This document shows, one piece after another, positions 6,998-47,300 of a stretch of DNA of 64,000 nucleotides; the first letter of the stretch is position 1, and each line of letters begins with the position of its first letter. The DNA is from Hyphomicrobiales bacterium (GTDB lineage: Bacteria > Pseudomonadota > Alphaproteobacteria > Rhizobiales > JACESI01). Where the stretch lies: positions 62,001 to 126,000 of the forward strand of contig JBDWKL010000016.1 in assembly GCA_039973685.1 (NCBI GenBank), read 5' to 3'. A program made the position numbers and the translations under genes. The notes beneath the pieces were generated by a model. The model made no database searches, was not told the DNA's origin, and was given only the letters and a program-made list of their open reading frames with translations.

Positions 6998-7206
6998 TTT
7001 TTACGCTTTCGACATTTGAGTTGCGGTTAAGCTACCTCGTTATGGTAAATGAATGATTGACGCCGAAGACCCAACTGCTCTAAATCCGCAATTTAACTCA
7101 GTTTGTTGTTTAATAACGTGACTTGTTTTGCATTGCACAAACACCCATCTTCACTTACGACACCCTATGGGTTTAATTTGTTAGTTAAGTCACTATGGAA
7201 TTCTAA

Positions 7207-8007
7207 ATGACGAAATATGACGTTCAAAACTCCAACAACGAGATTATTTCGCTCTGCGAGCAAATCGCTGAAACACCAATTAATGACCTTGATCGTTTGG
7301 AAGAACTCTATTCCAAGCTTGATCCCATTTTGGACGTTGCAGACCAAGAAACTGTTGACTTGGTTTTGAGCGATACAACATTTCAAGAAAACCGAGATCA
7401 ACTTCACACCAAACGTGCGCATTATGAATATGATCGCGAGAAGCTTCTGGCTGACGAAATCATCGCTGAACATAATGCCGATGTGGCCGCAAAATTTCGG
7501 AGCCATGATTGGTATGACAAGGCATTGGATTTTGAAACAACAGCCCTAGCGCCCTATAAGCTGCAAAACATCTTGTTCGTTGGCTCAGGTCCGTTTCCAA
7601 CATCCCCAATGGCCTTTTTACGCAATAATCCAAGCGCCAAAGTTTCCTGTATGGAGCGCTATGAAGCCGCTTGTGAAAAGGCGCGAGAAGTCGCCAATAT
7701 TTTTGGCATGGACGCGCTCAACATTATCAACAATGAGAGCACGGACGTTACCGACTTTTCTGACTATGATTGCGTCATCGTCGGCTTGGTGGTCGGTGCT
7801 GTCCAAGAGCAAAAAGCAAAAATCGTCAAACACTTTCTTGATCACGTGCCTGAAGAAACACTACTGTGTTTTCGCACAGCGGACGGTTCTGGTCAGATTA
7901 TCTATCCAAGTGTAGATTTAGACCATTTGGCGGGTCTCAATTATAAAGTTTTGGAAGGTCCGCCCCATAAGAGCTTTACACTTGTCATTTTGGAGCGTGG
8001 TCAATGA
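7207..8007 (+). CDS. Nicotianamine synthase-like protein A
   Basis: This 266-residue protein resembles nicotianamine synthases and the staphylopine enzyme CntL, which transfer 3-amino-3-carboxypropyl groups from S-adenosylmethionine. A helical N-terminal region (1-118) is followed by a Rossmann-like SAM domain starting with LFVGSGPFPTS at 123-133. Later NAS-like stretches are VIVGLVVGAVQEQKAKIVKH at 190-209 and LLCFRTADGSG at 219-229, then IYPSVD. By eye E78 (in YEYDREK) and Y103 fall where catalytic Glu and Tyr residues lie in archaeal NAS; this placement needs an alignment. It is first in a five-gene operon and its stop overlaps the next start (ATGA). Substrate and product are unknown. Confidence 0.8.
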   Translation: MTKYDVQNSNNEIISLCEQIAETPINDLDRLEELYSKLDPILDVADQETVDLVLSDTTFQENRDQLHTKRAHYEYDREKLLADEIIAEHNADVAAKFRSHDWYDKALDFETTALAPYKLQNILFVGSGPFPTSPMAFLRNNPSAKVSCMERYEAACEKAREVANIFGMDALNIINNESTDVTDFSDYDCVIVGLVVGAVQEQKAKIVKHFLDHVPEETLLCFRTADGSGQIIYPSVDLDHLAGLNYKVLEGPPHKSFTLVILERGQ

Positions 8008-8924
8008 CCAATGAAATTGCTTCACTTGACGAGCAAATAATTGAAATCACAAATGTCATCGCCTTTTACGCAAAACGCCTCACGTTGATGCGGGGGCGAG
8101 ACGTGACAACGGAAGCACGAAGCCGCAGCTATCTTTCAAGTGGCAGTGCCGAAACCGCTTATCAAACTGTTTCGCCTTGGTATCAAATACTCGAACCAAT
8201 TTATGCCGAGCTTGAAGGTTTAATGCAGCAAGCAGACAGTGATGATACAGCCCGTATTTTGGCCGATGATCGCATTAAGGGCGCGCTTGAGCATCTTCAC
8301 CAAATTAGAGCGGCCTATGAATTTGACAAAGAGATTGATGCGGCAAAAACAATTTTAGGCTTAGAAGACCCTGCCCAACATTTAGCTGAGATCATGGATC
8401 ATCAGTCCTACTGGATTTTGACTGAGCCTGTTTTGAAGGCACTCAAGGGTGCCAAGAATGTTGCCGTTATTGGTTCTGGTCCTCTTCCTCTGACAGCGCT
8501 TGGTGTCGCGGAACAAACGGACGCTTTTGTTACGTGTTTCGAGCTTGATAAGGACGCCTTTGATCTCGGCAACAAAATCATTGCCCATAGTCCGCAAAAA
8601 CAAAACATCGCGTGTTTGAACCAATTGGCTAAAGGCGGTGATGTTTTCAAAAAGTTTGATGCGGTCATTTCAGCGGTGCTTTTGGGCGTGGATCTTGATA
8701 GTCCAATTCACATTCCAAAATCTGAAACGCTGAATGCCTTTCTAAGTGCTGTACCAAACAACGCGCCGGTCATCTTGCGTGACCCGTTTCGCTTAGGCAG
8801 TTTATTTTATCCAGCCGCTCAAACTGATCAACTTTCAAATGTCGACGTCAATCGGTTTGATCCTCTAGCAGTAATTGGCGAACCCTATCGTTCCTCTTTC
8901 CTCATTTTGCGGACATCCAGTTAA
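8004..8924 (+). CDS. Nicotianamine synthase-like protein B (diverged tandem paralogue)
   Basis: A 306-residue second member of the same family. The SAM-binding motif VAVIGSGPLPLTALG at 153-167 is very close to the plant NAS signature. The N-terminal helical part (about 1-150) is longer than in the upstream paralogue. E106/E110 (YEFDKE) and Y136 match the E/Y pattern of protein A. The region LRDPFRLGSLFYP at 258-270 corresponds to the NAS 'R..G....YP' segment. Identity to protein A is low by eye, so the duplication is old or the genes were acquired separately. It overlaps the previous gene by 4 bp and ends 1 bp before the next, suggesting coupled translation and perhaps a hetero-oligomer. Confidence 0.78.
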   Translation: MTNEIASLDEQIIEITNVIAFYAKRLTLMRGRDVTTEARSRSYLSSGSAETAYQTVSPWYQILEPIYAELEGLMQQADSDDTARILADDRIKGALEHLHQIRAAYEFDKEIDAAKTILGLEDPAQHLAEIMDHQSYWILTEPVLKALKGAKNVAVIGSGPLPLTALGVAEQTDAFVTCFELDKDAFDLGNKIIAHSPQKQNIACLNQLAKGGDVFKKFDAVISAVLLGVDLDSPIHIPKSETLNAFLSAVPNNAPVILRDPFRLGSLFYPAAQTDQLSNVDVNRFDPLAVIGEPYRSSFLILRTSS

Positions 8925-8925
8925 A

Positions 8926-9603
8926 ATGGCGACACAAGCCCCTCTCACCTATATCGCTAACTATTATGATAGCGTTCAAAAGAAAAATGCTGCTTTTCCT
9001 GAAGTTGCAGAATTTTGGCTTTCTGGATTTCGCCATATCACAGGCAAGAAGGTATTAAACCTTGGCTGCGGTCCGATGCTTTACGATAATATGCTTCGTT
9101 TTGGCGAAGCCCCTGAAGCCTATGTCGGCCTCGATCTTAATGCTGCTTCTTTTGAATTCTTGGAAAAGAGCGACCACCCAGCCTTAGTCGAAGCGCGCGC
9201 CAAAGCGGAAAGCATCTGCCCTGATATACAATTTATTGCCGGTGATGTTTTCGATCATATGGCAGACCTTGAAGGTCAATTTGATGCTGTTTTGGGTATC
9301 GGTTTCTTTGGCACCTTTGAGGGTCAACTGTTTGATGATTTGGTGGCTGCAACCCATCAAATGCTAAAACCAGATGGTCAGCTTTTAAAAATGACATGGC
9401 ACGGGGCACAGCGTAGTGCGCGTGAGACGGAAGACAAATTGAAATATCGCTATGACAATGAGATTGAACCGCCCGCTGAAGAGCTCGTCCGATTGATCGA
9501 AGCGCAGGGTTTTTCTGTCGCTGTAAATGACATTCTTGATTGCCCACCCAACACGGTTGGATGGGATAAGATTCAAATCGCAACATTCAACAAGCAAGCC
9601 TAA
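8926..9603 (+). CDS. Class I SAM-dependent methyltransferase of the NAS-like operon
   Basis: A 225-residue class I methyltransferase. The start ATG at 8926, one base after the previous stop, is preferred over an in-frame ATG inside that gene. Motif I is LNLGCGPMLYD at 44-54 and the acidic ribose-binding residue is D70 in YVGLDLN. The post-I region has FIAGDVFD, then FDAVLGIGFFGTF, and a motif III-like LKPDGQLLKMTWHG. I cannot assign the acceptor. Its place between NAS-like and acetyltransferase genes suggests it modifies the operon's small-molecule product, possibly by N-methylation; that is inference. Confidence 0.8.
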   Translation: MATQAPLTYIANYYDSVQKKNAAFPEVAEFWLSGFRHITGKKVLNLGCGPMLYDNMLRFGEAPEAYVGLDLNAASFEFLEKSDHPALVEARAKAESICPDIQFIAGDVFDHMADLEGQFDAVLGIGFFGTFEGQLFDDLVAATHQMLKPDGQLLKMTWHGAQRSARETEDKLKYRYDNEIEPPAEELVRLIEAQGFSVAVNDILDCPPNTVGWDKIQIATFNKQA

Positions 9604-9608
9604 GCACG

Positions 9609-10481
9609 ATGGAACAATCCAGACCTTCTTTTAATATTCATGATGGCGCCCCTGAGTTTGAAGCCTACCAAGCGCTAAGAACAAAGGTGGTTGGCAACAC
9701 TTATAATGTTTGCGCTGCGAAACAAGGGCTCGCAAACACAGACTTCTCCGTCCACGCGTTAGATGACGATAAGCTCGTGGGCTTTGCTCGTGTTATTAGT
9801 GATCGAGGTCTTTGGTACTATTTGACTGATGAGACCGTGGACACGGACCATCCTCAGCATGATCAAATCCAAGCCGCAATGATTGAAAATCTAGTCAATC
9901 AGTTTTACCAAACTGCCCCTTCAGGCGGTTACATGATGGCAATTACCGATAAGTCTGACCTTTACCAATCTGCTGGCCTGAAACTTCTTGATCCACCCGA
10001 GCGTGGATTTTGGGTGCGTCAAACTGAAGAACCAAATCCATTTCCAAAACCAAGCGACGATCTTGGGCCCGACTACGACGTCATCTATGAGATGGTGGAT
10101 GCAGAAACCTTTTTGAAGTTTCGCGAAATCGGTAACCTTGGCAAAAAAGACCTCGATGCAACCCGTGTCAGCATGGAGAAAACACCCTTTGCCGTGCAGG
10201 TTCTTTACAAGGGAGAATGCATTGCCTTTTGCCGGACAATGAATGATGGCGGGCTTAGCTATCACATGGCAGATGGCGTAGTGTTGCCCGACCATCAGGC
10301 AAGTGGTATTGGGAAGTTCTTTGTAACTCGACAAATTTACGAATTTTACAAAACATCGCCAGTCGGCGCCCATATGTTGGCGTTCACATGGGCAGGCGAG
10401 TTTGCGCTGAAAACTGGATTTGAAGAACTACCGGATAACTATGTTGGTCTTTGGGCTTGGCAACCCTTTGAGGCGACTTAG
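9609..10481 (+). CDS. Double GNAT-domain N-acetyltransferase-like protein
   Basis: A 290-residue protein built of two GNAT-fold halves (about 1-138 and 155-285). The halves echo each other: VGFARVISDRGLWYYL matches IAFCRTMNDGGLSYHM, and VNQFYQTAPSGGYMM matches IYEFYKTSPVGAHML. Only the second half keeps a canonical acetyl-CoA loop (HQASGIGKFF at 229-238). In the first half that position reads HPQHDQIQ, so it is probably inactive or structural. It follows the methyltransferase gene by 5 bp. Possible roles are acetylation of the operon product or self-resistance; the sequence does not decide. Confidence 0.75.
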   Translation: MEQSRPSFNIHDGAPEFEAYQALRTKVVGNTYNVCAAKQGLANTDFSVHALDDDKLVGFARVISDRGLWYYLTDETVDTDHPQHDQIQAAMIENLVNQFYQTAPSGGYMMAITDKSDLYQSAGLKLLDPPERGFWVRQTEEPNPFPKPSDDLGPDYDVIYEMVDAETFLKFREIGNLGKKDLDATRVSMEKTPFAVQVLYKGECIAFCRTMNDGGLSYHMADGVVLPDHQASGIGKFFVTRQIYEFYKTSPVGAHMLAFTWAGEFALKTGFEELPDNYVGLWAWQPFEAT

Positions 10482-10489
10482 GAGATAAT

Positions 10490-11167
10490 ATGCAGATTGA
10501 AGACAGCGCAAACCAAGAAGTAGCAAGCGATACCTTGCCAGAAAACCGGCAAGACCGTGTTGGCTGGGCGTATAAAGTTTCCGAAAAAACCGAGCGTGCT
10601 CGCGAACGTTTTGATGCTTGGGCTGAAGATTATGACCGTGATGTGCACGACCTTTATGGTTGGAATGGTCCTGATGCCACTAGCGATTTTGTTTTAAAGC
10701 ACGTTGCAAAAGACGCATCCATTTTGGATGCTGGTGCGGGCACCGGCCTAATGGGCGTTCTTCTGCGCGAGAACGGGTACCATGATTTAACAGGCACCGA
10801 TATTTCGCAAAAAATGCTCGACGTCGCGCGCACGAAGAATATCTATAAGCAAGATTTTCAAGCCGACCTCACCAAATCACTACCCTTGGATGATAGCTCC
10901 TTTGATTGCGTCGTATGCGTTGGGGTTAGTGGCTATATGGTTGCGCAGACCATCGGCGATTTCGTCCGTATTCTAAAACCATCTGGCCATATTATCTATA
11001 CAATCAGCGATAACCATTATTATGAACATGGCTATAGTGATGTTGTAGAAGCGCTCGCTTTATCAGGCGATATAAAGATTTTAGAAAAAGGCGAAGAATT
11101 TGCGGCCCTTCCAATTTCAGACCCGCACCACAAAGCGCGCGTGCATGTCTATAAAAAAATCGGATAG
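10490..11167 (+). CDS. Class I SAM-dependent methyltransferase, METTL27/WBSCR27-like
   Basis: A 225-residue methyltransferase closing the five-gene operon. It has an N-terminal helix with FDAWAEDYDRDV, motif I LDAGAGTGLMGVLL at 79-92, LTGTDISQKMLDVA, FDCVVCVGVSGYM and LKPSGHIIYTISD. The order resembles the METTL27-type group whose substrates are poorly known. A strong ribosome site AGGAGA lies just before the ATG, and it begins 8 bp after the GNAT gene. A convergent gene begins 39 bp downstream. A second methyltransferase in one small operon suggests two methylation steps or two acceptors. Confidence 0.78.
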   Translation: MQIEDSANQEVASDTLPENRQDRVGWAYKVSEKTERARERFDAWAEDYDRDVHDLYGWNGPDATSDFVLKHVAKDASILDAGAGTGLMGVLLRENGYHDLTGTDISQKMLDVARTKNIYKQDFQADLTKSLPLDDSSFDCVVCVGVSGYMVAQTIGDFVRILKPSGHIIYTISDNHYYEHGYSDVVEALALSGDIKILEKGEEFAALPISDPHHKARVHVYKKIG

Positions 11168-11206
11168 GCTTTCTACTCAATCTTTGAACATCGAGACTTT
11201 GGTAAC

Positions 11207-46765: not shown

Positions 46766-47300
46766 AAGATAGGGCTTTCCGCAATGTTCTTATGCAGACA
46801 TATCGATGAAAGCGTTGGATTTCAACGTGCAAGCGATTCTGCGTTTTATTAACGGCTTTAGATGAAGCCTGTGTAAGAGTTGTGAAAAACCTTTGATGGG
46901 ATACGTGGGCAAAAATTTTATCCAAAATTATTCGAAAAATTGCCCCCAGCAAAAATTGCTATTGATTAGTCATTCACAAATTGTGGGAATCGTGGAAAAT
47001 TAGTTCTTTCAAACTTATTCGATAATTATTACCTATGAGTTCAAACTCGATTAGAACATAACTCATTGAAATATATATAATAATTATGTTTTCATCGATT
47101 CTATTATTCTCTGATCTAAAAGTTTCCACATTTTTGGATGGCTGTGGATTAAAAACGAAGATGTGAACGAAATCTAATTCCCAAAGTTCCCCTGTATAAT
47201 AATAGTAGTCATATAAAATAAGATTCTATTTATGTTGCTTGAAGGCTGGAAATCATGAGAGAACAGCCATCTTCGAAGCAGTCGGAGAATCTACAAATGT
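46766..47300. other. oriC: Probable chromosomal origin of replication (oriC)
   Basis: A gene-free, AT-rich 535 bp between maf and hemE, the position of the origin in Caulobacter and Rhizobiales. By eye, DnaA-box-like 9-mers (consensus TTATCCACA) occur at 46918-46926 (TTATCCAAA, + strand) and 47143-47151 (TAATCCACA, - strand), with weaker ones at 46881-46889, 46970-46978, 46991-46999 and 47122-47130. An AT run at about 47070-47090 (ATATATATAATAATTATG) could be the unwinding element. GANTC methylation sites lie at 46835, 46987, 47097, 47222 and 47287. Flanking genes point outward. The hemE promoter must also be here. Confidence 0.8.

Follow-up and report, generated by a model that had tools for sequence, protein, structure and literature searches.

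A compact, apparently mobile cassette with paired nicotianamine-synthase-family genes in a Hyphomicrobiales genome

Five open reading frames (ORFs), all on the forward strand, occupy positions 7207-11167 of a 64,000-nucleotide stretch of contig JBDWKL010000016.1 from a Hyphomicrobiales bacterium (the window). They form a compact cluster of two nicotianamine synthase (NAS) family genes, two methyltransferase genes and a GNAT gene. The ORF listing and the sequence give gaps of -4, 1, 5 and 8 bp, in agreement with the five-gene operon described in the initial annotation. NAS1 (7207..8007) predicts a 266 aa protein and NAS2 (8004..8924) a protein of 306 aa, and their reading frames share 4 bp. MT1 (8926..9603) predicts a class I methyltransferase of 225 aa that appears to belong to a private family; the ORF caller places its start at a TTG at 8875, and the ATG at 8926 was chosen, which agrees with the relatives. 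GNAT (9609..10481) encodes a two-domain protein of 290 aa, with the N-terminal half at approximately 9609-10019 and the C-terminal half at approximately 10020-10478, and is followed by MT2 (10490..11167), which encodes a METTL27-like class I methyltransferase of 225 aa. The cassette lies in the interval 6998..11206, between a gene with a pilus-formation N-terminal domain and an Alph_Pro_TM gene, both on the reverse strand.

NAS1 and NAS2 both belong to the nicotianamine synthase family by profile, predicted fold and catalytic glutamate. The Pfam model PF03059 scores 73.1 bits for NAS1 and 46.7 bits for NAS2, both above its cut-off of 27.1, and the profile search on which the initial annotation had staked its reading of two NAS-like proteins thus places them inside the family. 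The CntL equivalog model NF033601 gives 30.2 bits for NAS2 against a cut-off of 350, and NAS1 is absent among the matches listed for it. By this model, both proteins are far from CntL in sequence. AlphaFold2 models were built from four-sequence alignments and have a mean predicted local distance difference test score of 83.1 for NAS1 and 78.9 for NAS2, with residues 31-56 of the latter modelled at low confidence. The archaeal thermonicotianamine synthase MtNAS is the first structure match of the predicted NAS1 model (Z 24.9-25.1 over 254-255 residues; best 25.1 over 254 residues at 3.0 Å; residues 5-266 of NAS1), with CntL second (Z 21.5) and the next row at 15.7. Likewise, MtNAS comes first for the predicted NAS2 model (Z 21.6-22.3; best over 257 residues at 3.2 Å; residues 7-306 of NAS2), followed by CntL (Z 17.7-19.6) and then a row at 13.8. 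The comparison with MtNAS and CntL proposed earlier therefore ranks these two ahead of all others, and the models predict the NAS fold, an N-terminal helical part and a Rossmann domain, across nearly the whole chain of each protein.

In a MAFFT alignment of 16 NAS-family rows, every row has Glu opposite MtNAS E81 (16/16), including 4/4 NAS1 and 4/4 NAS2 rows. The counterparts are E78 in NAS1 and E110 in NAS2, and the hmmsearch alignments concur. In the excerpted text of PMC10248798, E77 and Y106 of AtNAS1, which match E81 and Y107 of MtNAS, are reported to be essential. The motif GSGPLPxTAL is kept in 5/5 NAS2 rows. Family, predicted fold and the conserved glutamate together make it most likely that NAS1 and NAS2 are aminocarboxypropyl transferases.

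The operon is considered more than a chance arrangement because other genomes have these genes in an identical order. The full set, NAS1-NAS2-MT1-GNAT-MT2, is found in the window's order in the alphaproteobacterial metagenome-assembled genome (MAG) G283 (locus L034, probably JASJBI010000032.1), with identities to the window proteins of 40% (NAS1), 44% (NAS2), 49% (MT1), 32% (GNAT, C-terminal half) and 46% (MT2, over 221 aa). A second alphaproteobacterial MAG, G164 (locus L032, probably JAJFFI010000386.1), carries EamA-NAS1-NAS2-MT1, where the contig end cuts MT1 and leaves a fragment with 57.9% identity over 95 residues. A gammaproteobacterial MAG contig, L033, carries SBP5-DppB-DppC-DppDF-NAS1-NAS2-MT1 (DppB and DppC named from their translations), preceded by flavin adenine dinucleotide (FAD) oxidoreductase and PrpF genes. 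The neighbourhood comparison that the initial annotation had called for thus returned the five genes in G283, and the first three in G164 and L033. A cut NAS2 and MT1 are also present on a 3.1 kb contig of genome G107.

NAS1 and NAS2 lie side by side in all four loci that cover both positions. From the family and order to which G283 and G164 belong, the search covered just these two genomes, and the pair is present in each (2/2). When the five proteins were compared by tblastn with the neighbourhoods L021-L034, MT1 was found only in L021, L022, L028, L032, L033 and L034. Matches to GNAT and MT2 were confined to L021 and L034, and these two are one and the same contig. GNAT and MT2 follow in 2 of the 4 loci with DNA past a complete MT1, namely the window and G283, and are missing in L033 and G107. 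The core of the cassette is therefore NAS1, NAS2 and MT1. Of 101 genomes searched for NAS1 as relatives, the window's own is the only one to have it (1/101), and the three other genomes of the same genus lack it. PF03059 has matches at E≤0.001 in 14 of 385 class genomes, with 11 over the cut-off, and in 5 of 398 phylum genomes, where only the window's own genome is over it.

At E≤0.001, a profile built from four MT1 proteins has matches in 54 of the 372 class genomes, with at most seven candidates scored per genome. The top scores are 438 (G107), 426 (G283), 414 (G000) and 144 bits (G164), the last for a gene cut by the contig end, and those of three of the four are high by construction because the proteins are in the profile itself. 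All other scores are 32.1 bits or lower, so that none falls between 32.1 and 144 bits, and all four high-scoring genes adjoin NAS genes of this type. Among the 398 phylum genomes, the sole match at E≤1e-12 is the window's own. On these sequence comparisons, MT1 looks like a private methyltransferase family that marks the cassette. TPMT, CMAS and generic methyltransferase models match all four family members, and PF01234 (NNMT/PNMT/TEMT) matches three of the four with a best E value of 2.7e-6.

GNAT is an internal duplication, its halves being 28% identical over 123 aa, as expected from its earlier description as a double GNAT protein. QASGIG (QxxGxG), which we take to be the acetyl-CoA motif, is kept in the C-terminal half and lost from the N-terminal half, and the G283 protein has a single domain. 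METTL27 (7qcb) is the best PDB match of a two-sequence profile of MT2 and its same-position counterpart in G283, with 85.8 bits, and the earlier designation of MT2 as METTL27-like is retained.

The history of the NAS pair was examined in a maximum-likelihood tree of 16 NAS-family rows, midpoint-rooted for drawing, in which MtNAS was represented by residues 47-242 only. G234 and G225 (both CheR-like by eye), G178, G279 (which reads GSGALPLT) and the NAS2 fragment of G107 were left out. NAS1 (4 rows, support 97/97) and NAS2 (4 rows, 100/97) form separate supported clades, and the two together are split with 100/99 support from the other eight rows, seven bacterial sequences and the MtNAS stretch. 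Each clade includes a row from all four cassettes, and the duplication therefore predates the divergence of the cassettes. By these sequences, NAS1 and NAS2 are sister clades that arose in an old duplication and have been kept together. A recent tandem duplication was considered and rejected, since NAS1 and NAS2 of the window are only 24% identical and the clades each hold all four cassettes.

An empty site is present in 3/3 other genomes of the same genus, where the NUDIX, pilus N-terminal-domain, Alph_Pro_TM and TauE neighbours occur without the cassette (in G002, the Alph_Pro_TM gene was placed by a separate comparison). The interval between the flanking genes is 4209 bp long in the window and 129 bp in G001. 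The simplest reading is that a compact cassette, apparently mobile and horizontally moved, was gained, and loss is less likely because NAS1 occurs in 0 of 100 other relatives. Third-position G+C is 0.42-0.46 in the five genes and 0.37-0.53 in the measured neighbours. The cassette is thus not marked as foreign, and composition neither supports nor excludes transfer. An assembly artefact or contaminant was rejected for the window, as the contig is 175 kb long and the sister genomes also have the flanking genes next to each other. Contamination or artefact is possible for G107, where the contig is just 3.1 kb; that genome has 7% contamination, and its MT1 shares 82% identity with the one in the gammaproteobacterial L033. 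A tblastn search with NAS1 gave no match in 72,556 plasmid records, and one scan of viral contigs gave no relative.

A transporter gene is located directly upstream of the cassette, on the same strand, in 3/3 relatives with upstream DNA: an EamA gene in G164, SBP5-DppB-DppC-DppDF in L033, and in G283 a gene for a sodium:dicarboxylate symporter with a fused solute-binding domain. EamA and Opp-type ABC systems are classes found in opine zincophore clusters, according to the part of PMC7438024 available. These upstream transporters favour a transported product, with export or import plausible, and weaken the earlier suggestion that the product may be kept in the cell, though none adjoins the cassette in the window. 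The only transporter gene seen within six ORFs of the cassette in the window is of TauE type, lies on the other strand and is also beside the empty site in 3/3 sister genomes. A TauE-type gene is also present on the G283 contig (L021 2-598, reverse strand), about 6 kb from the cassette and 63% identical over 206 aa to that of the window, possibly by coincidence.

As the initial annotation had stated for the operon, the genes next to the cassettes include no recognised opine dehydrogenase; 20 of the proteins were examined with Pfam and the others by eye. PF10100 gave no match in the four cassette genomes (0/4), and as it also gave none in the controls or in 200 phylum genomes this is no proof. 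The published definition of a staphylopine-type locus, as given in the excerpt of PMC7438024, has a NAS gene directly upstream of cntM and genes for import and efflux within six ORFs. In the window, G283, G164 and L033, NAS1 is instead followed by NAS2 and then MT1, the TauE-type gene is the one transporter gene seen within that distance in the window (five neighbours by Pfam, the rest by eye), and the relatives have one transporter system each. By this definition the cassette is not a staphylopine-type locus.

The reading proposed here, with a probability of roughly 0.55, is that this is a horizontally moved cassette combining paired aminocarboxypropyl transferases and methylation with tailoring by the GNAT and METTL27-like proteins. 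We infer the reactions, their order, the product and its use as follows. Each NAS paralogue would most likely move a 3-amino-3-carboxypropyl group from S-adenosylmethionine (SAM) to an amine, releasing methylthioadenosine. NAS1 would probably prime an amino-acid acceptor and NAS2 extend the product, or the two may act as a heterodimer. MT1, which completes the core, probably adds a methyl group to a product amino group, while GNAT, active if at all through its C-terminal half, and MT2 would be accessory enzymes for acylation and further methylation, respectively. Together these steps would give a nicotianamine-like compound, methylated and acylated, without the involvement of an opine dehydrogenase. 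It is probably exported, re-imported or both, by different transporters in the relatives, and is plausibly a metallophore.

Several observations weigh against this proposal. N-methylation by MT1 is hinted at by the family match to PF01234, which is weak and does not appear in the match list of the window's own MT1. The transporter types differ across the three relatives and the window has no adjacent transporter of the cassette's own (five neighbours by Pfam, the rest by eye), so that a metallophore role is the leading guess only. The arrangement is rare, as one scan of a collection of genome contigs yielded three loci, those of G164, G283 and L033; these three relatives are all MAG contigs, and the five-gene form is known from two loci only, the window and G283. 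A sigma-70 scan detected 6 promoter-like sites, which is no excess over the 7.4 in shuffled sequences, and 7 terminator-like sites were detected against 4.4 in shuffles (standard deviation 2.1). The tyrosine that accompanies the catalytic glutamate is also less secure. MAFFT sets NAS1 Y103 opposite MtNAS Y107, with Tyr in 4/4 NAS1 rows, and hmmsearch instead sets A106 there, so that the assignment is unsure. In NAS2, Y136 is opposite Y107 in the MAFFT alignment, and the four NAS2 rows read Y/F/H/Y. This position varies, and NAS2 may therefore not work in the same way.

The last point would fit a non-catalytic or regulatory NAS2 partnering NAS1 as the sole aminocarboxypropyl transferase, and the 4 bp overlap of the two genes, which fits coupled translation, agrees with such a partnership. 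However, NAS2 retains the glutamate and the GSGPLPxTAL motif in every row, and this explanation is considered unlikely. Somewhat less unlikely is an internal metabolite, in which case the methylated aminocarboxypropyl product would serve inside the cell as a metal buffer or betaine-like solute, with the transporters of the relatives being unrelated neighbours. Nicotianamine as a metal buffer in plants provides a parallel, the window genome received no transporter with the cassette, and the transporter is of a different type in each relative. Against this reading stands the same-strand transporter gene directly upstream in all three, two of them of classes found in zincophore loci (PMC7438024, in part).

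Repurposing of NAS1 and NAS2 for plain methyl transfer, or for intramolecular cyclisation of SAM of the azetidine-2-carboxylate (AZE) type, is improbable. The class I methyltransferase fold is shared, and bacterial AZE synthases that cyclise SAM are described in the available parts of PMC11794875 and PMC10491745, but both proteins keep the N-terminal helical part of NAS and the catalytic glutamate, and their models rank MtNAS and CntL clearly first. No AZE synthase is among the best 50 structure-match rows, which excludes nothing. Lowest in probability, and very improbable, is a classical opine metallophore with a CntM-type dehydrogenase encoded elsewhere in the genome. Zincophore loci do combine NAS genes with EamA or Opp-type transporters, and some with methyltransferase and acetyltransferase genes (PMC7438024, in the portion available). 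Against it stand the lack of a recognised opine dehydrogenase beside the cassettes, the lack of PF10100 matches in the cassette genomes, with the reservation already made for its controls, and the low CntL score, which concerns NAS2 only.

The closest described systems are the opine zincophore loci for staphylopine, pseudopaline, bacillopaline and yersinopine. In the text of PMC7438024 available, the four characterised bacterial zincophore pathways use a NAS-type transferase and then an opine dehydrogenase. Extra genes for a methyltransferase or an acetyltransferase occur in some of the known loci, and an additional cntL homologue in one locus of Paenibacillus. The cassette shares with them a NAS-family transferase and, in two relatives, an adjoining EamA or Opp-type ABC gene, but differs in having two adjacent NAS paralogues, its own methyltransferase in third place and no recognised opine dehydrogenase adjoining. 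MtNAS, the best fold match of both proteins, agrees with them at Glu81 and, in one of two alignments, with NAS1 at Tyr107. It is a single enzyme, with glutamate as its first acceptor and the intermediate as its second (excerpt of PMC10491745), whereas the cassette has two paralogues together with methyltransferases and GNAT. Plant and fungal nicotianamine synthases belong to the same Pfam family as NAS1 and NAS2 and use three SAM to make nicotianamine, which has an azetidine ring (same excerpt).

A parallel with betaine-lipid synthesis by BtaA and BtaB had been drawn in the initial annotation. There, BtaB performs the N-methylation. The likeness is one of chemistry only, in that N-methylation comes after an aminocarboxypropyl transfer; it does not extend to homology, as BtaA is apparently not homologous to NAS/CntL in the account excerpted from PMC10491745.

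The enzyme family is thus known, and the new element is the conserved NAS1-NAS2-MT1(-GNAT-MT2) cassette, which is apparently mobile. Among the matches listed from the open-licence PMC literature, no title or abstract opening names a paired-NAS cassette without an opine step. A few distant bacteria have the cassette in whole or in part. Its product is probably a small molecule not described before, and there is a fair chance that this product defines a new class. It is suggested more tentatively that such a class would be made by two co-dependent NAS paralogues and a dedicated N-methyltransferase without an opine step, as a second bacterial route to nicotianamine-like metallophores in a compact mobile cassette of 3-5 genes that uses the host's transporter. 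If true, a NAS pair with its own methyltransferase and no adjoining opine dehydrogenase would broaden the known range of metal chelators, or compounds related to them, that derive from SAM. Being small and self-contained, the cassette also lends itself to heterologous expression and to the search for new metabolites.

A different tandem NAS pair, of 339 and 372 aa, was detected in G316 (L023 7661-10590). A methyltransferase gene precedes it, the C-terminal tail of the first NAS is rich in cysteine, and two EamA-like genes (by eye) lie approximately 1.4 kb upstream with an opposite-strand gene in between. In L033 (3-7897), the FAD oxidoreductase and the PrpF-family gene head the Opp-type ABC operon that precedes NAS1-NAS2-MT1. 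A convergent gene, in which a motif resembling that of class I methyltransferases was seen by eye, is located after the cassette in L033 (10418-11041, reverse strand) and L028 (2487-3107, reverse strand); the L033 gene has no Pfam match at E≤0.001. The likely chromosome replication origin is at 46766-47300 of the window, some 36-40 kb from the cassette, and the cumulative GC skew reaches its minimum at 44-46 kb. By eye from their translations, the genes around it are a maf-like gene on the left and hemE, rho, mnmE, mnmG, rsmG, parA and parB on the right.

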